Positions 6,970 through 25,822 of a DNA stretch of 39,222 nt are shown here, piece after piece; within the stretch, counting starts at the first letter, position 1, and every line of letters begins with the position of its first letter. The DNA is from Cytophagales bacterium (GTDB taxonomy: Bacteria; Bacteroidota; Bacteroidia; Cytophagales; Thermoflexibacteraceae): assembly GCA_013299115.1 (NCBI GenBank), contig JAAFKA010000040.1:1-39222 (forward strand). Direction: 5' to 3'. Below the pieces are notes generated by a model that saw only the letters and a list, made by a program, of their open reading frames with translations, searched no databases and had not been told where the DNA came from. The translations under genes and the position numbers were made by a program.

Positions 6970-7289
6970 CAAAGCAGTTTTTTCAATCCAACCTCGAAGA
7001 CGTTGAACAATGACACAGGGTAGGTGCAAGAATGTTCAACCTCTATCGAGGTTGGATTGAAAAACTGCTTTGTTTCGCCTGCGTGCAACGCAGGGAAAAG
7101 GGTGCAAAGTCACTCCACAACCCCGAAGGGGTTGAACATTCGTGTAGCAATATGTCATTGTTCAACCCCTTCGGGGTTGTGGAGTAGCCTTGCGTCTCTT
7201 CCCCTACGTTGCACGTAGGGCTATTGTTGTTCAACCCTTTCAGGGTTGTAGGTTGTTTCTTAGCTTAACAGCATTGGACTAAAGTCTGT
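6970..7289. repeat. Cluster of nested palindromic repeats (same families as the 22-24.4 kb array)
   Basis: This gene-free stretch after the HEPN gene holds three structures. First, a long inverted repeat has arms at 6970-7008 and 7034-7072, with outer sequence CAAAGCAGTTTTT and inner CAATCCAACCTCG. Second, a perfect 26-bp inverted repeat, 7113-7138 against 7159-7184, is built on CAACCCCGAAGGGGTTGAAC. Third, a half composite at about 7201-7250 carries CCCTACGTTGCACGTAGGG and CTATTGTTGTTCAACC. It ends in a 34-bp tail (7256-7289) that recurs with two differences at 24441-24474. From 7290 to 7411 I see nothing further. Confidence 0.9.
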
Positions 7290-9571: not shown

Positions 9572-9994
9572 ATGAAAAACAACGCAAAACCTACCGAGTC
9601 GGAATTAGAAATCCTACAAGTCTTGTGGGAACTCGGAGCCAGCACAGTGCGGACAGTCAATGACGAACTCTGCAAACGAAAAGAGGCAGAAGTGGGCTAC
9701 ACCACCACCCTCAAACAAATGCAAATTATGCACGAAAAAGGTTTGGTCAGCCGAAATGACGAGGCAAAAACCCACATTTTCAGTGCTGCCATTGCCGAAA
9801 GTGAAACCAAAAAACAGCTGTTAGACAGGTTTGTCGACCACGTATTCAGAGGGTCGGCTACAAGTTTAGTGATGCAAGCCTTGGGCGGAAAAAAATCAAA
9901 TGCCGATGAAATTTCCGAAATCCGCCGTTTCTTAGACGAAATGGAAAACAAACAAAAAGGTAACGACAACGCAAACGAAAAAGGAGGAAAATAA
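9572..9994 (+). CDS. BlaI/MecI/CopY-family transcriptional repressor (first copy)
   Basis: This 140-residue protein has the BlaI winged-helix domain (PTESELEILQVLWELGASTVRTVNDEL ... VGYTTTLKQMQIMHEKGLV, about residues 6-75) and a C-terminal dimerisation/cleavage region. In BlaI/MecI systems the repressor is inactivated when a membrane M56 peptidase senses a signal; the M56 gene here starts 1 bp after the stop codon. AAGGAGG at 9982-9988, inside the end of this gene, could be a Shine-Dalgarno site for the peptidase gene, unusual for this phylum, although it may merely reflect the codons for Lys-Gly-Gly. Operators lie at 9391-9436. Confidence 0.93.
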   Translation: MKNNAKPTESELEILQVLWELGASTVRTVNDELCKRKEAEVGYTTTLKQMQIMHEKGLVSRNDEAKTHIFSAAIAESETKKQLLDRFVDHVFRGSATSLVMQALGGKKSNADEISEIRRFLDEMENKQKGNDNANEKGGK

Positions 9995-9995
9995 A

Positions 9996-12422
9996 ATGAT
10001 AACCCTGCAAAATCTTATCGGAAATTGGTTCACACCCGAATTGTTGGCAGCCATCGGCTGGACTATTGTTCACTCCCTCTGGCAAGGGGCTTTGGTAGCT
10101 GTTTTATTGGCTATTGTCTTGGGTGTACTCAAAAACAATGCCTCTACCAATCGTTATGCCGTATCGGTTACGGCTTTGTTTGCCTTGTTGCAAATCTCTT
10201 TGTTTACCTTTATTGCCGTTTACGAACCTCGTTCTTTGGCTCAAGACCTCACTGCACCTACTGCGGTGATTGGCGAAATGACCTTAGAAAATCAGGATTT
10301 AATTATTGGCAATGCAGCCGAAACAACAGTCCAAAACGTGCAAAATGCCAGCACTTGGGCTACTTTTTATGAAACTACTTTGCTTACCATTCAAGAACAC
10401 TTGCATTTTATAGTTTGTCTTTGGATAGTTGGTGTGTTGTTATTCAGTTTGCGTTTTGCAGGCAACTTGCTGTATGTCAATCGGTTGCGAACTAAACAAA
10501 CTTCGCTTGTACCTGCTGCTTGGTTGCAACTAACCAATGACCTCCGCAGCAAATTGCGTTTGCGTAAAGAAGTGCAGGTTTTCTTGTCCGACTTGGTGCA
10601 TACGCCTACAGCTATTGGAATTTTTAAACCTGTTATTCTCATGCCTATCAGTTTGCAAACAGGTTTGACTATGGGCGAAGTGGAGAGTATTTTAGCACAC
10701 GAATTGGCACATATTCGCCGAAACGACTACTTGATAAATATTTTCCAATCTGTTGCCGAAATTTTGTTTTTCTATCACCCCGCTATGTGGTGGATTTCTG
10801 CAAACATCAGAGAAGAACGTGAAAATTGCTGCGACGACATGGCAGTAGCTGCACTTGGCGACTCTATGGTTTACTCACGTACCTTAGCCCGCATGAACGA
10901 AATGGCACACCAACAAACCTACACACAAACAGCTTTGGCTTTTGCAGGGCGAAAAGGGTCGTTGTTGTTCCGTATCAAAAGGTTGTTTACCCAACGCAAC
11001 GAAAACAATGTTTTTGCCGAAAGATTTGCTGCTGCTACTATTATTGTTGCGGGTCTATTGGTTTCTCTCACTGCCAATGCTACTTTGCTTACAGACAAAG
11101 CTGCAACAGTTATCAAAGAAATGAGCAATGAAGTAGCCGAATTGAGTAAGGTAGCTATGCACGAACAACGCCAACCTACGGAAGTTCCTTTGGAAGTACC
11201 CTCTGAAATTCCTACGGAAGTACCATTTTTGGCAGCCTCCGACACGTCCAAACGCAAAAGGGCTAAGTACATCATCACTGTAAACGAAGACGGCAAGGTG
11301 GACACCCTCAAAATGCCTGATGCAAATGGAGAGTTTTATTTCTACAATGGAACACTTGCACCCTTAGCACCCATGCCTCCAATGCCACCCATGCCGCCTA
11401 TGCCTCCTGATTTGGCTGAATTACCAGAGATGCCCGAAATTCCTGAATTTGCCTACGCACCCGCAATGGTTGAAATTGACGATTTCGATTTTTCTTTTGA
11501 AACTGACGATGATGGCAAAGACAAAAAACGCAAAAGAGTCTATGTGCAGATGAAAAATGGCGACAATAAACAACGCCAAATTATTATCAACGGCAAAACG
11601 ATGTCCTTAGATTCTATGAAAGCAAACAACATAGAAGTTGGCAAAGATGGCAATCGAGTGAAATTGTATTTTAGTGGAACAGAAAATACAGTCATAGACT
11701 TGGGCAACATAGCCAATGGTACAGATATGAAATTGCGTAATGTTCCTTTTCGTATGGGAGGTTTTCGCACAGGTACTTTTAGTAACAGAAGTTTTGACAA
11801 AAGTTTTGACAGTTTAAAAAACACCAAAGAGTACAAGAAAAAACGCGAAAAATACGAAAAAGCCTTAGAGGAGTACGAGGAAATGATGCTCAAATATCGC
11901 CAGCAAGTCCGCAAACAAGGCAAAGACAAAGCCATGAATTGGAAACAAACCGAAGAATGGCGTGCTTATGAGGAGGCAATGCGTGATTATGCAGAAGTGG
12001 TGCGTGAAAACCAAAGAGAAGTTGCAAATTTGGACAGAGAACGTCAAGAAATCATACGTGAGCAAGCAAACATTGCACGTGAAGAAAGACGTGCTGCAAT
12101 GGAGGAGGAAAGGCACAAAGAAATTGAAGCAAGGCACAAAGAAATTGAAGCAAGGCACAAAGTAATAGAAAAACAACATCTCGAAATTGAGAAAAAGCAC
12201 CAAGAAATTGCTGCGGCTCAAGAAGCAAAGATGGAAAAAGTGAAAGAGGAACTCAAAAAAGATGGATTTGCTACCGACAAAATCAAAATAGAGGTCAATA
12301 GCAAACGAATGATTATTAACGGCAAAGAGGTAAGTGCAGAAGTAGCCGAAAAATATCGTAAAATCTTAAATTTGAATAGCACAGCAGACGGAGATTTTAC
12401 TTACGAACAAACGAAGGACTAA
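9996..12422 (+). CDS. M56-family (BlaR1/MecR1-like) membrane metallopeptidase with long charged C-terminus
   Basis: The 808-residue protein begins with membrane segments (about 15-40, 50-72, 130-150) and a cytoplasmic zinc peptidase domain with HELAH at His235-His239 and a downstream EERENCCDD motif; another membrane segment lies near 345-365. The sensor part is not a penicillin-binding domain. Instead there is a Pro/Met repeat (PMPPMPPMPPMPPD), an acidic patch (EIDDFDFSFETDDDGKDKK), a beta-rich region, and a long charged coiled coil with KEIEARH-type heptads around 700-760. It probably senses an unknown envelope signal and cleaves the upstream BlaI-like repressor. A 14-bp inverted repeat follows the stop codon by about 60 bp. 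Confidence 0.92.
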   Translation: MITLQNLIGNWFTPELLAAIGWTIVHSLWQGALVAVLLAIVLGVLKNNASTNRYAVSVTALFALLQISLFTFIAVYEPRSLAQDLTAPTAVIGEMTLENQDLIIGNAAETTVQNVQNASTWATFYETTLLTIQEHLHFIVCLWIVGVLLFSLRFAGNLLYVNRLRTKQTSLVPAAWLQLTNDLRSKLRLRKEVQVFLSDLVHTPTAIGIFKPVILMPISLQTGLTMGEVESILAHELAHIRRNDYLINIFQSVAEILFFYHPAMWWISANIREERENCCDDMAVAALGDSMVYSRTLARMNEMAHQQTYTQTALAFAGRKGSLLFRIKRLFTQRNENNVFAERFAAATIIVAGLLVSLTANATLLTDKAATVIKEMSNEVAELSKVAMHEQRQPTEVPLEVPSEIPTEVPFLAASDTSKRKRAKYIITVNEDGKVDTLKMPDANGEFYFYNGTLAPLAPMPPMPPMPPMPPDLAELPEMPEIPEFAYAPAMVEIDDFDFSFETDDDGKDKKRKRVYVQMKNGDNKQRQIIINGKTMSLDSMKANNIEVGKDGNRVKLYFSGTENTVIDLGNIANGTDMKLRNVPFRMGGFRTGTFSNRSFDKSFDSLKNTKEYKKKREKYEKALEEYEEMMLKYRQQVRKQGKDKAMNWKQTEEWRAYEEAMRDYAEVVRENQREVANLDRERQEIIREQANIAREERRAAMEEERHKEIEARHKEIEARHKVIEKQHLEIEKKHQEIAAAQEAKMEKVKEELKKDGFATDKIKIEVNSKRMIINGKEVSAEVAEKYRKILNLNSTADGDFTYEQTKD

Positions 12423-13050: not shown

Positions 13051-13195
13051 CGATTTTGATTTCAGATTCACGTGCTTTACTTTCCGTAGGTTGCACCTAC
13101 GGCTATTGTTGTTCAACCCCTTCGGAGTTGGCTTGGCATTTTTTTACAACCTCGAAGAGGTTGAACAATAATAGCCCCACGTGCAACGTGGGGAC
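13051..13195. repeat. Single composite palindromic unit inside the second M56 operon
   Basis: This is one roughly 145-bp copy of the composite element amplified at 22-24.4 kb. In order it has a GATTTnATTTC/GATTCACGTGCTTT unit, CCGTAGGTTGCACCTACGG, CTATTGTTGTTCAACC with CCTTCGG, a T-rich centre, CAACCTCGAAGAGGTTGAAC, AATAG, and CCCCACGTGCAACGTGGGG. The unit ends about 5 bp from the stop codon of the second M56 gene, and its other end reaches near the start of the secreted-protein gene. Confidence 0.9.
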
Positions 13196-13199
13196 ACCT

Positions 13200-14837
13200 T
13201 TATCTCGGCGTATAACGCATGGTAACTGTTGCGTCTTTTTCGGCAGCTATTTGGAGGTAGCCCCCAATATCTTTGACAGGCGAAATTCGCACAATCCCTT
13301 GCTTATCAGGCGTATAATCTGTACCAAAAGTTTCTTTGAATAGCAATTTTGCTTTGCCTGCTGTAACCTCAAACGAATAATCCATGTCGTTTCGCAAAGT
13401 CATGGTAATTTCGGCTGCATCAGGGCTGGCTTTGGCAGAAAGTTGCAAACTACCAGCCTGCGGCGGCGAAGGTGGTGTTTCGTGCTTGCTCATATCATAT
13501 TCGCCGACCAAAACGACTACATTTTTTGCTCTTTTGCCATTTTTCAGCACTTCCATCATACATTCAGGGTTGTTGTCTTTCTGTTTGCGGTAGAATAGCA
13601 AAAATTTGGGTTTGGTTATTTCGTAGTCCTCGCTAAACTTTTTGGTTGTTTCGTCAAAAATTCGAACAGTCAAACCCTGATAGTCGTTGTCCGTTGCCAC
13701 AAAACTAATGCCGTATTGCAGGTGGTCTTGGGCAAAAAAGCTGACTTGATTTGCCGAGTTCGGCAGCAAAGTTTTGATAGCCTTGTACTCAAATTCGGTT
13801 TGCATAATTTGCTTTTGAGCCTCTATTTCGGAGGTTTGCAATTTGTAAATTTCTTTGCTACAAGCCACCAAAAATAAACCACCAACCAATGCGGGCAAGA
13901 TACCCAGCATTTTCCACAAAGCCCTGCGGTTGGTTTGCTGCTTTTGCAACATCATAATTCGTTTTTTGAGCAAAGATTTTTTGAAAAAAGAGTGTGCCAA
14001 CGCATACACTTCGCCCTGAAAAGTCTGATTAACCAGCAATTTTGCGTATTCTCTGCAATGAATAGCCTTGTTTTGCAGGCTGTTTTGCGAGTCTTTGGTT
14101 GCGTCTGTTAGTTGCAAAGTATTGACTGCCTGACGGTCTGCCAAATATTCGTGCAGGGCTTGCAAGGACTGTTTAGCCCAATACGCCACAGGATTAAACC
14201 AGAAAATGATTTGCAAAACCTCCATCAACAGCAAATCTAAGGTGTGCAGTTGTTTGATGTGTGTCAATTCGTGTAGCAAGATTTTTCTCCGTTGTTGGGG
14301 ACTCAACGCCTCATTTTCATTCCAAAACAAGATGTTCAGAAAAGTAAAAACAGGCAAGTGCTTTGGTAATTTCACCTGATAGACGCCTGCGTAGGGCGAA
14401 GTTTGCAGCCCATATTTTGCCACTAAACGCAAAATATGCCCCAAACCTTTCAAAAAACGAAACGCAGCCACCAATACGCCCAAACCATATATTGCAGCTA
14501 ACCAATTCCAATACATTGCCGTACTGTTTTGCGGTGCATTGCCCACTGCAATAGAAGCAACGGCAGGAATGGTCAGCGTAGGTTGTGGAGTAGGGGAGGG
14601 GGCAAAAGTTTCGTCTATCAGCAGTTGAAACTCCCCCGCATGTACGTGGGCTTGCAAGGCTTGCAAGGCGGGCAAGGCAGGCACGCAAGGCAGCAACAGA
14701 GCCACCAAAGTAGCCAACAAAAGATACACCCTGTTGCGGTGAAAAAACGTATCTCCTTGTAAAGCAACCACATACACGCCATACAAGAGTAGCCAAATTA
14801 GGCTGGTTTGCAATAAATGATTAAAAAAAGTTTCCAT
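13200..14837 (-). CDS. M56-family membrane metallopeptidase (second copy)
   Basis: The 545-residue protein has N-terminal membrane segments (about 8-27, 38-60, 108-128), the zinc site HELTH at His189-His193 followed by FNPVAYWAKQSLQALHEYLAD, and another membrane segment near 312-328 (LGILPALVGGLFLVACSK). About 215 beta-rich residues follow, presumably periplasmic, with no penicillin-binding motifs. The pair with the BlaI-like gene directly upstream (1-bp gap) argues for a BlaR1-type sensor-protease. The periplasmic part differs completely from that of the first M56 protein, implying a different signal. The stop codon abuts a composite repeat. Confidence 0.9.
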   Translation of the reverse strand: METFFNHLLQTSLIWLLLYGVYVVALQGDTFFHRNRVYLLLATLVALLLPCVPALPALQALQAHVHAGEFQLLIDETFAPSPTPQPTLTIPAVASIAVGNAPQNSTAMYWNWLAAIYGLGVLVAAFRFLKGLGHILRLVAKYGLQTSPYAGVYQVKLPKHLPVFTFLNILFWNENEALSPQQRRKILLHELTHIKQLHTLDLLLMEVLQIIFWFNPVAYWAKQSLQALHEYLADRQAVNTLQLTDATKDSQNSLQNKAIHCREYAKLLVNQTFQGEVYALAHSFFKKSLLKKRIMMLQKQQTNRRALWKMLGILPALVGGLFLVACSKEIYKLQTSEIEAQKQIMQTEFEYKAIKTLLPNSANQVSFFAQDHLQYGISFVATDNDYQGLTVRIFDETTKKFSEDYEITKPKFLLFYRKQKDNNPECMMEVLKNGKRAKNVVVLVGEYDMSKHETPPSPPQAGSLQLSAKASPDAAEITMTLRNDMDYSFEVTAGKAKLLFKETFGTDYTPDKQGIVRISPVKDIGGYLQIAAEKDATVTMRYTPR

Positions 14838-14838
14838 A

Positions 14839-15204
14839 TTACAAATCTGTTTTTTTGCCTATCATTTGCATAATGTCGTCCAATTCTTTGGTGTCCACTT
14901 CGTTTTTAGTGGCAAAAAATGAAACTAATTGTTTCAACGAGCCACCAAAATACTGTTCTATCAGTTTGTTGGCTGCCGAGTGGCTGTATTCCTCCTTGCT
15001 CACCACAGGATAATATTCGTGGGTATTGCCGTAGGTTTTGTGGTCTATAAAACCCTTCTGCTCCAACAACCTGACGACTGTTGAAACTGTATTGTAATTG
15101 GGCTTAGGTTCTGGATATTTTTCCAAAATATCTTTCACAAACCCTTTGCCTATCTCCCACAAGTATTGCATCACTTGTTCTTCGGCTTTGGTTAGTTCTT
15201 TCAT
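14839..15204 (-). CDS. BlaI/MecI/CopY-family transcriptional repressor (second copy)
   Basis: The winged-helix domain is visible (MKELTKAEEQVMQYLWEIGK ... PNYNTVSTVVRLLEQKGFIDH, residues 1-65), followed by a dimerisation helix region ending DELDD-like. The open frame extends to 15243, but the conserved BlaI start and the ATG at 15204 give the usual length of 121 residues. The operators are two TAGTT-N4-AACTA dyads at 15279-15312. They differ from the TACGA-N6-TCGTA sites of the first copy, so the two repressors likely control separate regulons. Confidence 0.93.
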   Translation of the reverse strand: MKELTKAEEQVMQYLWEIGKGFVKDILEKYPEPKPNYNTVSTVVRLLEQKGFIDHKTYGNTHEYYPVVSKEEYSHSAANKLIEQYFGGSLKQLVSFFATKNEVDTKELDDIMQMIGKKTDL

Positions 15205-15258
15205 CTTGTTTTTTGGTTTAGGGGTGTGGGCTGAAGCCCACACTACATTTAACTGCTA

Positions 15259-15312
15259 CAAAGTAAAAAAGAAAAATTTAGTTATACAACTATTTTTATA
15301 GTTATTTAACTA
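15259..15312 (-). promoter_or_regulatory. Promoter and paired operators of the second BlaI-M56 operon
   Basis: Two dyads, TAGTT-ATAC-AACTA (15279-15292) and TAGTT-ATTT-AACTA (15299-15312), are 20 bp apart start to start and lie within a larger palindrome (GAAAAATTTAGTTA to TAACTAAATTTTTC, 15271-15320). On the minus strand a TTG (15289-15287) falls inside the first dyad and TTACTTTG (15266-15259) is a near -7 match, with 20 bp between. Repressor binding would cover the promoter. Confidence 0.7.
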
Positions 15313-15344
15313 AATTTTTCTTTTGGTTGTTTTTTGCTTAAAAA

Positions 15345-16085
15345 TTACAAACCATATTGCTGGTTTATATTTCTCACTTCTTGGGCAGCTAAACCCAAAT
15401 CATTTGTCAAATCAGTCAAAAAACTTTGCTCTCTACCTTCATAGTTGCCATCGGCTGCTATGATGAGGGCTGCTTGTTGGTAAAGTTGCAAAGCAAAAGC
15501 ACCGTTTTGTCGAGCCTGACCGACTACTTCCTCATAAGGCATGGGGCTATTAAAAATCTGGGTTAATTCCTGATTTACAAGGTCTTGATTGGCTATGTTG
15601 CTCGGAAATAACTGGTCTATGGTGCTTTGAATGAGGTTTTGAATGACCTGTTTTTCTTGGGGTTGGAAATCACGGTCTGCCCCCACGCTGTAAGACCAAA
15701 TGCTGACTGCCATACTTGCCGCTTGCATACGTGCCTGTAATAAATCCTCTGCATTTTGGGCAGACGGGGCTGCCGAATTGTAACTTCCTCTGCTGTTGGA
15801 GTTTTGAAAATGATTGACAGCATAGTTTACGGCTGCTCCAATGGCTACGGATACTAAGCTACCAAAAACGGAGTTATTGCTGCTTGACCCACCACCTACA
15901 CTACCACCGCCACCAAAAAGCATATTGGCAAGGCTACCCAAATCTAAGCCGCCGCCACTGGTTTGTTGGTTGTTGTTTTGCTGCTCGTCATAACCCCCAT
16001 TGTTAGTTTCATTGGGATTGTCAAAATTAAAATTTTCACTTAGAGATTCCTCATCAGGATTATCTCGTACAATGCGTACAGGCAT
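15345..16085 (-). CDS. TerB-like/DUF533-like protein
   Basis: The 246-residue protein has a disordered Asn/Gln/Gly/Ser-rich N-terminal part (to about 70), a short hydrophobic segment (VFGSLVSVAIGAAVNYAVNH, about 72-92), then an alpha-helical domain from about 115. That domain contains SVGADRDFQPQEKQVIQNLI and AALIIAADGNYEGREQSFL, the two acidic helix pairs seen in TerB-like and YebE/DUF533 proteins. The TerB-like fold often accompanies TerD-type proteins in stress or defence islands. It is monocistronic on the minus strand. Function beyond the fold is unknown. Confidence 0.7.
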   Translation of the reverse strand: MPVRIVRDNPDEESLSENFNFDNPNETNNGGYDEQQNNNQQTSGGGLDLGSLANMLFGGGGSVGGGSSSNNSVFGSLVSVAIGAAVNYAVNHFQNSNSRGSYNSAAPSAQNAEDLLQARMQAASMAVSIWSYSVGADRDFQPQEKQVIQNLIQSTIDQLFPSNIANQDLVNQELTQIFNSPMPYEEVVGQARQNGAFALQLYQQAALIIAADGNYEGREQSFLTDLTNDLGLAAQEVRNINQQYGL

Positions 16086-16173
16086 GGCTCTTGTGGTTTA
16101 AAAAGTTAGAAGAAGAAAGTTATTTACGCAATGATAAAAAAAAATATTAACTTTCGCAAAATAATTAGATTTT

Positions 16174-16695
16174 ATGCTTGCTATTCGCCTTGCCACGCCT
16201 GCTGATGCGGGGGTTGTGGCAGAACTAAGTTCCATAACTTTCAAAGAAACCTACTGGGGAACAGATACAGATGAAAATATTTTGCAACACATAGACGCCT
16301 ATTTTAATGAGGAGCAAATTTGTACTGAAATAGAAGATGCCAACGCAAACTGGTATTTCATAGCTTACCTGAACGAACAACCTGTGGGCTACATCAGACT
16401 TCGCCACGATATACTGCTCAAACCAGATTATTTGCAAAGCAAAGAAGCCTTAGAAGTGGCTCGGTTGTATGTGTTAAAAGCCTTTCATGGACAAAAAATA
16501 GGCTGGCAACTGCTGCAACAAGCCGAAAAATTTGCCGAACAGCTACAATGTGAGGTAATTTGGCTTTGTGTGTGGAAAGAAAACCAAAAAGCCTTGCTTT
16601 TTTATCAACAAGGTGGTTTTGAATTGGCGGGAGAATATTTATTCCAATTAGGCACTTCCACTTATATAGATTGGGCAATGACTAAGAAATTGTAA
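16174..16695 (+). CDS. GNAT-family N-acetyltransferase
   Basis: This 173-residue single-domain GNAT protein starts IRLATPADAGVVAEL, has the beta4 strand VARLYVLKAF and the acetyl-CoA pyrophosphate loop HGQKIGWQLL (Q/RxxGxG/A form), and ends with a beta6-7 motif around KENQKALLFYQQGGFELAGEY. It acetylates an unknown small molecule or N-terminus; the substrate cannot be inferred. It is divergent from the TerB-like gene and not clearly in an operon. Confidence 0.9.
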   Translation: MLAIRLATPADAGVVAELSSITFKETYWGTDTDENILQHIDAYFNEEQICTEIEDANANWYFIAYLNEQPVGYIRLRHDILLKPDYLQSKEALEVARLYVLKAFHGQKIGWQLLQQAEKFAEQLQCEVIWLCVWKENQKALLFYQQGGFELAGEYLFQLGTSTYIDWAMTKKL

Positions 16696-16749
16696 AGATT
16701 TACAGCACAAGAAACCTGTGGTAGTTCTATACCAATCCTAAGCAAAACC

Positions 16750-16802
16750 AGAGGGTGTCCGAAAAATCAAATGATGTACCACAGGCTTTTTAGGCACCCT
16801 CT
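16750..16802. terminator. Hairpin between two convergent GNAT genes
   Basis: AGAGGGTG (16750-16757) pairs with CACCCTCT (16795-16802), with further AAAAA/TTTTT pairing inside. It lies midway between the converging GNAT genes and could stop both transcripts. Nearby CCTGTGGTA/TACCACAGG form an additional alternative pairing. Confidence 0.55.
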
Positions 16803-16853
16803 GCGCATTACACCTGTGGCACTACCCAGCAGGATTATAGTTTAAAAATAACC

Positions 16854-17294
16854 CTATAACTTTTTGGTTAGCTTAAAATGCGAATTGGTATAGCCTTCTC
16901 TTACATAAAAACGGTGGGCATCTTTTCGCACTTGGTTGGAAGTTACCTCTATTTCTAAACAACCTTTGGTAACAGTCCACTCCGTTGCCGTTGCCAGCAG
17001 TAGTTTTCCTATGGCTTGTCCTCTGTATGCAGCCAATACATAGAGTTCTTGCACCTCCGCTACGAGGGCTGCATGATGCAACAAATGCTGCAAATGTACA
17101 CTGATAAAACCAGCAGGTTGCAAATTTTCGCCACTGCCAACCATTGCCAACCAACCTTTAATGTCGGAAGACTGCAAATTATGGAGAAAAACACGACTAA
17201 AAGCCTCATAAGGCAGTATTTCTTCTTCTAAATCACAAATAAATTGATAGACCACAGGCAGGTCTTCGGCAGTAGTTGGGCGGATAGTTAGCAT
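16854..17294 (-). CDS. GNAT-family N-acetyltransferase
   Basis: The 146-residue GNAT protein starts LTIRPTTAEDLPVVYQF and has VQELYVLAAYRGQAIGKLLL as beta4 plus the acetyl-CoA loop, with a DAHRFYVREGY motif near the end. It begins 1 bp after the stop codon of the Lys-tailed secreted protein, so the two are translationally close. The substrate is unknown. Confidence 0.9.
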   Translation of the reverse strand: MLTIRPTTAEDLPVVYQFICDLEEEILPYEAFSRVFLHNLQSSDIKGWLAMVGSGENLQPAGFISVHLQHLLHHAALVAEVQELYVLAAYRGQAIGKLLLATATEWTVTKGCLEIEVTSNQVRKDAHRFYVREGYTNSHFKLTKKL

Positions 17295-21925: not shown

Positions 21926-22020
21926 GGATTAGGATTTGTTTGAAATTTCTACAAAAGTATGTAATTTTTTTGAGAGAAAAGAAAACTTTGAGGGAACTTT
22001 TTTTGAGGGTAGATTTTTCG

Positions 22021-22340
22021 ATTTTAATGCGGATTCATGTGCTTTGTCCTTGATTTTAATGCGGATTCACGTGCTTTGTCCTTGATTTTAATGTGGATTC
22101 ACGTGCTTTGTCCTTGATTTTAATGCGGATTCACGTGCTTTTTCTTCGATTTTAATGCGGATTCACGTGCTTTATCTTCGATTTTAATGCGGATTCACGT
22201 GCTTTTTCTTCGATTTTAATGCGGATTCACGTGCTTTATCTTCGATTTTAATGCGGATTCACGTGCTTTATCTTCGATTTTAATGCGGATTCACGTGCTT
22301 TATCTTCGATTTTAATGCGGATTCACGTGCTTTATGTCCC
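22021..22340. repeat. Tandem array of ten 32-bp units containing CACGTG
   Basis: Units begin at 22021, 22053, 22085, 22117, 22149, 22181, 22213, 22245, 22277 and 22309, with an exact 32-bp period. Each reads ATTTTAATGCGGATTCACGT followed by GCTTT and a short variable linker (GTCCTTG, TTCTTCG or ATCTTCG types). There are no unique spacers, so it is not CRISPR. The last unit runs directly into the first composite palindrome. Confidence 0.95.
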
Positions 22341-22842
22341 TACGTTTCACGTAGGGCTATTGTTGTTCAACCCCTTCGGGGTTGTAAAAAAAATGCCAAA
22401 CCAACCTCGAAGAGGTTGAACAACAATAGCCGTAGGTGCAACCTATGGAAAGTAAAGCACGTGAATCTGAAATCCAAACGAAGACGTCCCTACGTTGCAC
22501 GTAGGGCTATTGTTGTTCAACCTCTTCGAGGTTGTAAAAAAAATGCCAAACCAACCCCGAAGGGGTTGAACACCAATAGCCGTAGGTGCAACCTACGGAA
22601 GACGTAAAGCACGTGAATCTAAAATCCAAACGAAGACGTCCCTACGTTGCACGTAGGGCTATTGTTGTTCAACCCCTTCGGGGTTGTAAAAAAAAATGCC
22701 AAACCAACCTCGAAGAGCAATTCCATTGCGGGTTGAACAACAATAGCCCTACGTGCAACGTAGGGGACACGATGCAGTCGTCTTACAACAACCTCGAAGA
22801 GGTTGAACACCAATAGCCCTACGTGAAACGTAGGGACACAAT
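22336..22842. repeat. Composite nested-palindrome units, left block (three tandem copies)
   Basis: Units start at 22336, 22486 and 22638, about 150 bp each. Each has CCCTACGTTGCACGTAGGG (or the TTTC variant), CTATTGTTGTTCAACC, CCTTCGGGG, a T/A-rich centre with ATGCCAAACCAACC, GGTTGAACAACAATAG, CCGTAGGTGCAACCTACGG and a closing AAAGCACGTGAATCTGAAAT. The two halves are inverted relative to each other and each carries its own small hairpins. In the third unit the right-hand hairpin is expanded with a GCAATTCCATTGC loop, and an extra half unit follows. Confidence 0.92.
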
Positions 22843-22970
22843 GCACGTGAATCCGCATTAAAATCAAGGACAATGCACGTGAATCCGCATTAAAATCGAA
22901 GATAATGCACGTGAATCCGCACTAAAATCAAAGACAAAGCACATGAATTGAATCCGCACTAAAATCAAAG
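22840..22970. repeat. Four inverted copies of the CACGTG unit
   Basis: GCACGTGAATCCGCATTAAA and variants repeat about every 32 bp from 22840 to 22970, in the opposite orientation to the ten units at 22021-22340. Together the two sets bracket the left composite block as a large inverted repeat. The third and fourth copies have drifted (GCACTAAAATC; an inserted TTGAA). Confidence 0.9.
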
Positions 22971-23035
22971 CAGGAGAATCTGAAATAAAAAACGGTAAGA
23001 TTTGCTTTTATTGCAACAATTTACAAAAATTGCAT

Positions 23036-23095
23036 TTTCGGTTTTGAGAAACCGAAAGCACAGGAAAAGCACAGAAAAAGCACAGAAAAAACAGA
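23036..23095. repeat. Small hairpin and 11-bp tandem repeat just upstream of the Y1 transposase
   Basis: TTTCGGTTT (23036-23044) pairs with AAACCGAAA (23049-23057) around TGAG, followed by three tandem AGCACAGAAAA-like units up to the start codon. The hairpin and AGCAC recur at 33141-33165 upstream of the flippase gene. IS200/IS605 elements are bounded by such small hairpins, so this may be the left-end recognition structure. Confidence 0.6.
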
Positions 23096-23099
23096 CCAA

Positions 23100-23546
23100 A
23101 TGAGTAGATATAGTCAGATTTTATATCAAGTGGTTTTTAGTACCAAAAACAGAGAGCCTACTTTGCTCAAAGAGCATAGACGAGATTTGTATGGGGCTAT
23201 TCATGGGATTTTGAAGGCTAAAAACTGTTTTGTTTATCGGATTGGAGGCATAGAAGACCATATTCACATTGCATTTAGTCTGCACCCTACCATTGCGTTG
23301 GCAGATTTGGTGAAGGACATCAAATTAGGTAGCACCAGTTTTATCAAAGAGAAAGGCATTTTTCCCGATTTTATTGGTTGGCAGACGGGGTACAGTGCCT
23401 TCACGTATAGCATAGAGGCTAAGGATAATCTAATAGCCTACATAAAAAATCAAGAAACACACCACCAACAACTGTCTTCGGCACAAGAAATGAAGGATTT
23501 ATTAGCTGCTTTCGATGTAAGTTTTGACGAAAAATACTTCGAATAA
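23100..23546 (+). CDS. tnpA: IS200/IS605-type Y1 transposase (TnpA or RAYT-like)
   Basis: This 148-residue single-domain Y1 HUH nuclease has the start YSQILYQVVFSTKNREP, the HUH motif His54-Ile-His56 in EDHIHIAF, WQTGYSAFTYS (94-104), and the probable catalytic tyrosine Tyr114 in AYIKNQETHH. Length and motifs are intact, so it is probably active. IS200/IS605 TnpA cuts single-stranded DNA at sites defined by hairpins, and the domesticated RAYT branch acts on REP palindromes. It sits in the middle of a 2.4-kb array of hairpin-forming repeats, with 32/33-bp tandem units on both sides. No TnpB gene is present. Confidence 0.92.
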   Translation: MSRYSQILYQVVFSTKNREPTLLKEHRRDLYGAIHGILKAKNCFVYRIGGIEDHIHIAFSLHPTIALADLVKDIKLGSTSFIKEKGIFPDFIGWQTGYSAFTYSIEAKDNLIAYIKNQETHHQQLSSAQEMKDLLAAFDVSFDEKYFE

Positions 23547-23560
23547 GAGGAGATTTTTCG

Positions 23561-23692
23561 ATTTGATTTCGGATTCACGTGCTTTGTTCTTCGATTTGAT
23601 TTCGGATTCACGTGCTTTGTTCTTCGATTTGATTTCGGATTCACGTGCTTTGTTCTTCGATTTGATTTCGGATTCACGTGCTTTGTGTCCCT
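23561..23692. repeat. Tandem array of four 33-bp CACGTG units
   Basis: Units start at 23561, 23594, 23627 and 23660 with a 33-bp period. Each reads ATTTGATTTCGGATTCACGT plus GCTTTGTTCTTCG. They differ from the left array (32 bp, ATTTTAATGCGG) only in the first part, showing two subfamilies. The array begins 14 bp after the transposase stop codon and runs into the next composite units. Confidence 0.95.
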
Positions 23693-24430
23693 ACGTTTCA
23701 CGTAGGGCTATTGTTGTTCAACCTCTTCGAGGTTGTAAAAAAAAATGCCAAACCAACTCCGAAGAAACACCTCTTCCCTACGTTTCACGTAGGGCTATTG
23801 CTGTTCAACCCCTTCGGGGTTGGTTTGGAATTTTTTTACAACCTCGAAGAGGTTGAACAACAATAGCCGTAGGTGCAACCTACGGAAAGTAAAGCATGTG
23901 AATCTGAAATCCAAACGAAGACGTCCCTACGTTTCACGTAGGGCTATTGTTGTTCAACCCCTTCGGGGTTGGTTTGGAATTTTTTTACAACCTCGAAGAG
24001 GTTGAACAACAATAGCCGTAGGTGCAACCTACGGAAAGCAAAGCACGTGAATCTAAAATCCAAACAATAGCCCTACGTTTCACGTAGGGCTATTATTGTT
24101 CAACCCCTTCGGGGTTGTAAAAAAATGCCAAACCAACCTCGAAGAGGTTGAACAACAATAGCCGTAGGTGCAACCTACGGAAAGTAAAGCACGTGAATCT
24201 GAAATCCAAACGAAGACGTCCCTACGTTGCACGTAGGGCTATTGTTGTTCAACCCCTTCGGGGTTGTAAAAAAAAATGCCAAACCAACCTCGAAGAGGTT
24301 GAACAACAATAGCCGTAGGTGCAACCTACGGAAAGTAAAGCACGTGAATCTGAAATCTAAACGAAGACGTCCCTACGTTTCACGTAGGGCTATTGTTGTT
24401 TGACCCACAATGGAATTGCTTTTCGAGGTT
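23687..24430. repeat. Composite nested-palindrome units, right block (about five to six copies)
   Basis: Units start near 23687, 23776, 23923, 24067, 24218 and 24369. The 24218 unit is 151 bp and nearly identical to 22486. All are in direct orientation with each other and with the left block. The first (23687-23775) is truncated after CCAACTCCGAAG. The last (24369-24430) is truncated at TTTGACCCACAATGGAATTG, the same GCAATGGAATTGC variant as at 22717-22732. Either CCCTACGTTTCACGTAGGG or the GCAC variant opens each copy. Confidence 0.92.
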
Positions 24431-24440
24431 TTAAATATAC

Positions 24441-24474
24441 TTTCTTAGCTTAATAGCATTGGACTAAAGTCCGT
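24441..24474. repeat. 34-bp tail repeat (second copy of 7256-7289)
   Basis: The sequence beginning TTTCTTAGCTTAATAGCATT and ending GGACTAAAGTCCGT matches 7256-7289 at 32 of 34 positions. GGACT-AA-AGTCC is a small palindrome. In both places it directly follows the 3' end of a palindrome cluster. Confidence 0.85.
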
Positions 24475-24572: not shown

Positions 24573-24655
24573 GTTGTAAAAGGTGTTGCAAAGAAGCAGA
24601 GATGACATCTTTTAGAAAGATGTCATCTTTGCTTCTTTGCAACACCTTTTACAAC
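24573..24655. repeat. 83-bp near-perfect hairpin upstream of the acyltransferase gene
   Basis: A 40-nt left arm (24573-24612, starting GTTGTAAAAGGTGTTGCAAA) and a 40-nt right arm (24616-24655, ending GCAACACCTTTTACAAC) pair with one G-T wobble around the loop TAG. It lies 24 bp before the ATG of the acyltransferase gene. It may be a terminator for the array side, a leader hairpin, or a miniature inverted-repeat element. Confidence 0.9.
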
Positions 24656-24679
24656 TATCAATTTTAACAACTCAAAAAT

Positions 24680-25822
24680 ATGGAAAATTCAATGCTCAAC
24701 ACTGCCAGACGTTATGATATAGATTGGCTGCGTGTACTTTTGTTTGGTTTGCTCATTTTTTATCACGTAGGAATGTTTTTTGTGCCTTGGGGTTGGCATA
24801 TCAAAAACAACGTGATTTACGATGGCTTGGTCTATCCTATGCTGTTTCTTAACCAATGGCGACTGTCGTTTTTGTTTCTCATTTCGGGCATGGGAACTTA
24901 TTTTGCCCTTTCCAAACGCACAGGTGGGCAGTTTGCCAAAGAAAGACTAACCAGATTGTTACTTCCTTTGTTGTTTGGAATGTTGGTCGTTGTGCCGCCG
25001 CAGGTGTATATAGAAAGGTTAGACAAAGGGCAATTTTCGGGCAATTATTTTACCTTCTGGTTTTCGGAGGCTTTTGTAGGTGTATATCCTGTTGGTAATA
25101 TAAGCTGGCATCACCTTTGGTTTATTGTCTATTTGTTGGTTTTTTCCTTGCTGTTCATTCCTTTGTTTTTGTATTTACGCCAAAACCCACAAAACATTTT
25201 CATTCAAAAAATTAGGAATTTGGTTGCCTCACCCTACAAAATTTATCTTTTTGTACTGCCTTTGTATGTTTGGGAAAGTTTGGTTGAGCCTTTTTTTGAT
25301 TCCACCCACGCCTTGTTAGACGATTGGTTTAATTTGATAAATTATAGCACCTTTTTCTTGTATGGTTTCTTGCTCATCACTGTTCGTGAAACTTTTTGGC
25401 AAACCATTCTTACCCACAAAAACAAGTTTTTAGTCGTGGGAATTGTCAATTTTAGCATTTTCATCACTATTAAAATTCTAATTGAAAATGGCTTGGAAGA
25501 CGGTTATGTGGTGCATTTCAGCGAGGCAGTTTTCAAAGTTCTAAATTGCTGGTCGTGGATTTTGACATTTCTGGGTTTTGCTGCCACCTACCTCAACCAC
25601 AACAGCCCTACCCTGCAATATGCCAACGAAGCAGTTTATCCCTTCTACATTTTGCACCAAACTCTTATTATTGTGTTGGCTTATTTTCTCAAAAACTTAG
25701 CTTGGAGTTTTGCCCTCAAATTCACCTTGCTTGCTGTGGGTACTTTTGTGCTTGCGTGGCTCTTGTACGAATTATTGATACGAAGGATTAAGGTCTTGCG
25801 GTTGTTTTTTGGGTTGAAGTAA
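24680..25822 (+). CDS. Acyltransferase family 3 membrane protein (OafA/OpgC-like)
   Basis: The 380-residue protein has about ten membrane segments. It starts RRYDIDWLRVLLFGLLIFYHVGM, and the conserved His of the family is in the YHVG motif. PWGWHIKN, LNQWRLSFLFLISGMG and a KERLTRLLLPLLFG motif follow, typical of acyl_transf_3 proteins that add acyl or succinyl groups to extracytoplasmic glycans. The acceptor is unknown; Bacteroidota carry many such paralogues. It appears monocistronic with an 83-bp hairpin just before it. Confidence 0.92.
   Translation: MENSMLNTARRYDIDWLRVLLFGLLIFYHVGMFFVPWGWHIKNNVIYDGLVYPMLFLNQWRLSFLFLISGMGTYFALSKRTGGQFAKERLTRLLLPLLFGMLVVVPPQVYIERLDKGQFSGNYFTFWFSEAFVGVYPVGNISWHHLWFIVYLLVFSLLFIPLFLYLRQNPQNIFIQKIRNLVASPYKIYLFVLPLYVWESLVEPFFDSTHALLDDWFNLINYSTFFLYGFLLITVRETFWQTILTHKNKFLVVGIVNFSIFITIKILIENGLEDGYVVHFSEAVFKVLNCWSWILTFLGFAATYLNHNSPTLQYANEAVYPFYILHQTLIIVLAYFLKNLAWSFALKFTLLAVGTFVLAWLLYELLIRRIKVLRLFFGLK

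Follow-up and report, generated by a model that had tools for sequence, protein, structure and literature searches.

A subclass 1.2 Y1 transposase and its dispersed two-hairpin repeat: a probable REP/RAYT-like system in Bacteroidota

A 39,222-nucleotide stretch of Cytophagales bacterium DNA (assembly GCA_013299115.1, contig JAAFKA010000040.1, positions 1–39,222; here 'the window') carries tnpA, the gene for a Y1 transposase of the HUH type, between two arrays of a short two-hairpin repeat that recurs elsewhere in the host genome (5.5 Mb, 74 contigs; G000). Gene and repeat are associated: the anatomy of the locus, flanking that is specific to one transposase clade, orientation towards the gene, co-occurrence across genomes and dispersal within them all show it. 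The locus is probably a system like those of repetitive extragenic palindromes (REPs) and REP-associated tyrosine transposases (RAYTs), i.e. REPtron-like, though built on a subclass 1.2 TnpA of the IS200 branch and on a REP with two hairpins. That TnpA mobilises the repeat is inferred.

The transposase and the half-unit

The tnpA gene (23100–23546, + strand) is an open frame of 148 amino acids, and its product matches Pfam Y1_Tnp (E 1.4e-19, residues 5–118) and has the motifs DHIH, WQ and YIKNQETHH (Y---Q--HH). In Quentin et al. 2018 (PMC6006769), subclass 1.2 is given as DH[IV]H, WQ, YIKNQKEHH and 148 amino acids, with 'no' in the REP column, and as generally without typical terminal IS200 structures. 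The window TnpA agrees with that subclass, also in its low copy number (one close copy in the host genome), the assignment resting on motifs and length. The near-identical multiple copies of an IS200/IS605 insertion sequence (IS; subclass 1.1) are not found, there being the one close copy, nor is the Y---NP of class 2 RAYTs, the window protein having YIKNQ. The AlphaFold2 model of TnpA (mean predicted local distance difference test score 89.9) has ISDra2 TnpA as its top Foldseek match (2xm3, E 4.2e-9, template modelling (TM) score 0.58). It is closest to the ISDra2 and IS608 transposases (TM ~0.6), and TnpAREP 4er8 comes at rank 25.

The smallest conserved block of the repeat is a 47-nt half-unit, which consists of a hairpin, H1, an 11-nt linker, usually CTATTGTTGTT, and a second hairpin, H2. 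H1 is CCCTACGT-TKC-ACGTAGGG or a variant such as CCGTAGGT-TGC-ACCTACGG; H2 is CAACCCC-TTC-GGGGTTG or CAACCTC-TTC-GAGGTTG. Both single strands of the half-unit at 22338–22384 are predicted to fold to precisely these two hairpins, and as single-stranded DNA it reaches −13.8 kcal/mol against a shuffled mean of −3.7 (z −6.3; none of 200 shuffles is as good). Half-units are predominantly arranged as inverted pairs. The left array (22338–22835) has seven, in the order + − + − + − −, of which that at 22705–22765 bears an insertion, and the right array (23689–24331) has nine, in the order + + − + − + − + −. The half-unit closest to tnpA is on the − strand at the left (22789–22835) and on the + strand at the right (23689–23735), so that H1 faces the gene on both sides.

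Eighteen own-genome copies show paired changes in the stems, with most loop and linker positions constant, these copies having been chosen for good pairing. In a separate covariation count 95.6% of cells are paired and 14 of the 15 pairs are changed on both sides. Because the half-unit finder required near-perfect hairpins and a TATT-like linker, such covariation counts are weak evidence, and the foot and linker frequencies given below are biased towards the model for the same reason. The case therefore rests on flank density, orientation and co-occurrence.

Flanks of related transposases and co-occurrence across genomes

Scanning genome contigs yielded 27 TnpA relatives, in Bacteroidota, Spirochaetota, Thiotrichaceae, Coatesbacteria, Phycisphaerae and, distantly, Bacillota; many of these are from metagenome assemblies, and individual host assignments may therefore be mistaken. 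With relatives from 395 Bacteroidota genomes included, 43 loci (L033–L053, L070–L091) constitute the clade considered here. In a tree of 64 rows, which leaves aside four of 68 proteins that are partial, broken or cut (L053, L056, L062, L091), the 42 clade rows group together with support 98/99, and 39 of them are repeat-positive. Outside the clade the repeat-positive rows number two of 22 and not one of 22, since L098, labelled negative in the tree, has a match at E 0.00095. The motif Y---Q--HH is found in 41 of 44 clade rows and also in 20 of 24 rows outside, which suggests that subclass 1.2 is probably broader than the clade.

Half-units were sought with a covariance model, R1, whose training copies come from 14 of the 21 loci L033–L053. 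A match at E≤0.001 lies within 600 bp of the gene in 40 of the 43 clade loci, in several phyla. The 50 kb of near flanks hold 158 of the 172 matches, and the 147 kb farther out hold 14, a 33-fold difference in density. The orientation seen in the window is general: the nearest left match is on the − strand in 30 of 36 loci and the nearest right match on the + strand in 26 of 29, that is with H1 towards the gene, and both sides conform in 20 of the 25 loci with matches on the two sides. The 22 loci L070–L091 form an independent set, outside model building and without a blastn match at 1e-20 to the 21 others; there R1 matches in 20 of 22, with the typical orientation in 10 of the 14 that have both sides. 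In these same loci a test that needs no model gives perfect hairpins of any sequence (arm ≥7) at 4.74 per kb of flank, 0.85 outside and 0.20 in shuffles, so that flanks are 5.6 times denser than their surroundings.

Two features of the sampled loci stand apart. Groups near the clade (L095, L098, L060, L063) have apparent single-hairpin repeats of their own, with a CTAC/CTAT-type linker (e.g. CTACCAATATT and a hairpin), and perfect hairpins at 1.95 per kb in their tnpA flanks against 0.55 outside. One genome, G278, has four sites with similarity to the clade's transposases, of which three are interrupted by stops.

The survey of 395 Bacteroidota genomes counted a genome as repeat-positive at R1 E≤1e-4 and as clade-positive at E≤1.2e-39, a cut-off chosen after a gap had been seen, the next genes (in G395 and G277) falling outside the clade in the tree; that the repeat and gene scans covered the same genomes is judged from their matching numbers and handles. 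With 15 candidates scored per genome, 55 of the 395 are R1-positive. Clade-positive genomes have the repeat in 20 of 23 cases, clade-negative ones in 35 of 372 (Fisher p 3e-16, uncorrected for relatedness). By genus the figures are 14 of 14 and 12 of 157, but in one of the 14 (g74) the repeat-positive genome, G038, is not among the gene carriers. The seven genomes with at least 15 matches all carry the clade. Deeper scoring, of 150 candidates, found up to 76 matches in clade genomes (G365) and up to 31 in the clade-negative ones tried (G023). Of the 35 clade-negative genomes with the repeat, some relative at E≤1e-10 is present in 20, one of which, G104, has what is apparently a clade gene split across two contigs. 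As a side observation, two-hairpin repeats without a detectable TnpA relative are seen in genus g66 of family f19 (G311, G068 and G022 among others).

An initial annotation of the window had proposed a REP/RAYT-like system in Bacteroidota, and had named as evidence to the contrary the finding of its units in equal abundance in genomes lacking the transposase. The counts above go the other way, and of the 12 other genomes in the host's family 11 lack any R1 match, the twelfth having two weak ones. The reading it suggested thus withstands its own test and is supported in part; the association is not the first of REP with RAYT in this phylum, as PMC6006769 already reports one for subclasses 2.4 and 2.6. 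What is new is a REP association with subclass 1.2, and no description of a REPtron-like system of that subclass was found in the literature searched. Elsewhere in the family no transposase comes closer than 42%, and relatives with 59–64% identity occur in other phyla and orders. A family nearly free of the repeat and without a close transposase, with nearer relatives elsewhere, points to horizontal arrival: gene and repeat family probably came in together and subsequently spread through the host genome.

Dispersed copies, an outer module and rival explanations

The host genome contains at least 161 half-units by R1 search, the number being a minimum because scoring there covered 150 candidates. 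The 150 that are listed form 68 clusters, and 131 of them are on contigs other than that of the window. Among these 150, neighbouring pairs with H1 inside (− +) number 34, spaced by 104–109 bp in 20 and by exactly 105 bp in 12; those with H2 inside (+ −) number 24, with spacings of 12–32 bp; tandem pairs are − − in 17 cases and + + in seven, 21 of the 24 being spaced by 19–23 bp. Alternating orientation with fixed spacer classes is the mosaic arrangement known from bacterial interspersed mosaic elements (BIMEs). Two pairs of sites, C2:31609 with C5:110107 and C9:10637 with C52:16268, have identical 105-bp cores in unrelated flanks (~50% identity), from which it follows that elements were recently dispersed or homogenised. 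The C49/C52 pair, in which the flanks match as well as the cores, is a duplicated region and is not counted as dispersal (G000:C49 ~14574–15772 is near-identical to G000:C52 ~15768–16966, including a 199-bp element and ~500 bp on each side, through duplication or an assembly effect).

In the window, two tandem arrays, 150 bp ×2.5 at 22336–22717 and 149 bp ×4.2 at 23775–24400, correspond to the composite units of about 150 bp that the initial annotation placed on either side of an intact-looking Y1 HUH transposase. Gene and arrays are indeed there, as are the palindromes it named (one, CAACCCCTTCGGGGTTG, occurs seven times in the window, six of them inside the array), but the element that repeats is the half-unit. 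A degenerate final half-unit (24371–24430, +, 35.8 bits) follows the right array. The standalone copies also reported are an inverted pair at 13084–13193 (+ then −, with a gap of 16 bp) and a half-unit at 7202–7248 (+), with weak partial half-units upstream to ~6989. The 32/33-bp arrays, which had been taken as part of the same system, are instead a separate, local module, S, with CACGTG: 17 of its 20 genome matches at ≤3 mismatches fall at the tnpA locus. They lie at 22017–22335 (+, 32-bp repeat ×10, containing GGATTCACGTGCTTT), 22838–22970 (inverted, −, 32 bp ×3.5–4, about four copies) and 23557–23686 (+, 33-bp version ×3.9, about four copies).

Other features of the window are noted briefly. 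The standalone pair sits between two gene pairs, 9572–12422 and 13200–15243, each of a BlaI-like regulator and an M56-peptidase-like gene (names given by eye from translations). To the right of the array, ahead of a gene at 24680, is a long inverted repeat (24575–24660, by eye) of TTGTAAAAGGTGTTGCAAAGAAGCAGAGATGACATCTTT and its near complement. Readings of the locus as an RNA family or as a defence system were rejected, since Rfam identifies nothing in the window but a tRNA and PADLOC gives no match.

Many half-unit clusters are bounded by a further module, H0, TTTCTTAGCTTAATAGCATTG followed by a GGACTWWAGTCC-like palindrome. In the window its 17-mer occurs at 24445 and 7260: the first is at the right end of the array (24445–24461, +, TTAGCTTAATAGCATTG then GGACTAAAGTCC) and the second (7260–7276) comes after the standalone half-unit. 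Two congeners share H0-bounded elements of ~240–300 bp (L211–L215; L217–L234), whose inner hairpins belong to one or the other of two sets. In the congener G002 they have other hairpins, e.g. GTGCCGTAGGCAC, and linkers like GTAATATTTATAG, which resemble those beside G002's own, more distant, transposase (L060; by eye, at few loci). H0 is shared within the genus and G002 lacks a close tnpA relative, so H0 is independent of the window gene; the inner hairpins seem, by eye and at few loci, to follow transposase type and not H0.

Several findings weigh against the REP/RAYT-like reading. For three clade-positive genomes (G112, G088, G050) the whole-genome search is negative at E≤1e-4, deeper scoring included, although weak matches adjoin their clade genes. 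Fifteen of the 35 repeat-positive clade-negative genomes, 13 of them in one family, have no transposase relative at E≤1e-10; at eleven places in nine such genomes the repeats have the same two-hairpin layout, and they may be relics or be served by another enzyme. Two of 24 loci outside the clade (L054–L069, L092–L098 and the host's second Y1 gene) match R1 at E≤0.001, namely L055 and L098. Dispersed copies were best matched by the tnpA-flanking copies of their own host in nine of 14 cases only (14 copies from eight hosts, compared with the flanks of 14 hosts). No empty site was found in the one attempt made, in which the two sides of a 3.4-kb stretch with the 199-bp element match different contigs of G002 (C7 and C199). 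The canonical GTAG tetranucleotide, or foot, is present in none of 47 independent clade copies. Finally, 36 of the 68 clusters have an H0-like string no more than 90 bp from at least one end, and H0 is shared with G002, which has neither half-units of the window type nor a close relative of the window tnpA; part of the dispersal may accordingly have another cause.

The last point leads to the strongest rival, in which the H0-bounded elements are miniature inverted-repeat transposable elements moved by another transposase, with half-units as passengers and the tnpA locus as one more site. The 69 exact sites of the H0 17-mer in the host genome (control 0) speak for it, together with the adjoining clusters, the G002 elements and the presence in G000 itself of H0 elements with the hairpin type of G002. 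The other 32 of the 68 clusters, however, have no H0-like string nearby, H0 strings are absent from the three G002 tnpA loci examined (L060, L065, L068), and the likeness of the G002 inner hairpins to those at its L060 gene is as if TnpA set the hairpin type. This explanation is unlikely, though it deserves to be taken seriously. Fainter still is the chance that the repeats serve the host, in transcription termination, mRNA stability or as nucleoid or gyrase sites, their link to tnpA being historical only. An intergenic position, found for 58 of the 63 clusters tested against 12.5% of random equal-width positions in the same stretches (four clusters on the window contig and one on C39 were omitted, and gene calls followed a simple longest-frame rule), would suit such a role, as would the persistence of repeats in 15 genomes without detectable tnpA. 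Against it, convergent genes are not favoured (eight convergent, 10 divergent, 39 tandem and one undetermined) and presence tracks the transposase clade and not host kinship, as the near-absence from the host's own family indicates.

Relation to known systems and a possible mechanism

The window system shares with subclass 1.2, as PMC6006769 describes it, its 148 amino acids, DH[IV]H, WQ and Y---Q--HH motifs, low copy number and a place in Bacteroidetes, which are among the hosts of the subclass. It differs in that the subclass is tabulated there as REP-free, whereas here one clade is flanked by, and co-occurs with, a dispersed two-hairpin repeat. The IS200/IS605 elements IS608 and ISDra2 offer the closest solved folds, the Y---Q motif and an expectation of hairpin recognition; they have a small subterminal hairpin at each IS end, unlike the multi-hairpin arrays and one close copy here. 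That an ordinary IS200 element, to whose branch the protein belongs, inserted by chance into an existing array is very improbable and already contradicted, given the same layout and characteristic orientation, across several phyla, at 40 of the 43 clade loci, the one close genomic copy, and the second host Y1 gene (C20, 31% identity), whose flanks have no R1 match. Subclass 2.6 (RAYT group 5) is likewise from Bacteroidetes and has 'atypical secondary structures' with genomic copies, but differs from the window TnpA in YIH[QN]NP, a median of 179 amino acids and a 21-residue insertion between alphaC and beta4 (PMC6006769).

Likeness to the class 2 RAYTs (TnpAREP) of E. coli and Stenotrophomonas is in inverted flanking REPs, many extragenic copies (>100) and arrays of fixed spacing. 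The Stenotrophomonas REP, as described in PMC8266576, is GTAG and an 8-bp perfect palindrome with a 3-nt loop, an order of foot tetranucleotide and stem that the half-unit repeats; what differs from class 2 is the class 1 motif, mostly ATAG/ATAA in place of GTAG, and a regular second hairpin, H2, ~11 nt away. Despite those inverted, BIME-like, high-copy REPs, a conventional class 2 REPtron can hardly be entertained here, since the motif is YIKNQETHH and not Y---NP, the foot is mostly ATAG, with the class 2 GTAG (GT[AG]G) in none of the 47 independent copies, and the ISDra2 and IS608 enzymes outrank TnpAREP in the fold search.

The foot is read before H1', on the strand with GNA loops. Alignment A1 comprises 23 of 33 other-species half-units and 13 of 27 own-genome ones (the ten omitted being a false pair at L035, two outside the clade at L055 and L068, one each at L039, L040 and L047, and two each at L045 and L048). 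ATAG precedes H1' in all 13 own copies; the 23 others have ATAG in 10, ATAA in eight, GTAA in two and GTAG in one. The independent clade copies have ATAG in 31 of 47 and [AG]TA[AG] in 43 of 47. GTAG does occur in three clade-negative genomes, in two repeats of G311, where the linker reads CTACCGATGTT, and in one each of G237 and G362. Among perfect hairpins with 3-nt loops, 117 of 159 near the transposase genes have GNA or the complementary TNC, against 14 of 36 outside. GNA triloops are unusually stable in DNA.

The likely active strand would then be 5'-H2'(GAA loop)-AACAACA-ATAG-H1'(GCA or GAA loop)-3', in which ATAG and an 8-bp stem with a 3-nt loop resemble the Stenotrophomonas REP, H2' being an additional hairpin. 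TnpA, an HUH single-strand endonuclease that by analogy with IS608 would be dimeric, may recognise the half-unit in single-stranded form, as could arise on the template of the lagging strand, cleave it near the ATAG foot and rejoin it. Half-units and pairs could in this way be copied or moved as non-autonomous elements.

A wider proposal is that the IS200 branch has entered a second, independent partnership with REPs. Subclass 1.2 TnpAs would then all maintain REPs, of double-hairpin type with an [AG]TA[AG] foot in the clade and of single-hairpin type with a CTAC/CTAT linker in its tree neighbours, and gene and repeat would travel together between phyla and re-seed genomes. This would be why two congeners have the same outer H0 with different inner hairpins, each set like those beside its own transposase. 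This is possible, but we would sooner doubt than affirm it.

REPs are common in bacteria, and the REP/RAYT-like association described here bears on how a transposase present in a single or few copies comes to have hundreds of non-coding ones beside it. A subclass tabulated as REP-free has, in one clade, a cognate repeat whose two-hairpin layout is conserved in several phyla. The half-units are short, defined substrates for assays of single-strand binding and cleavage, and related genomes provide comparisons with and without gene and repeat, for a system that connects the IS200 and RAYT branches.

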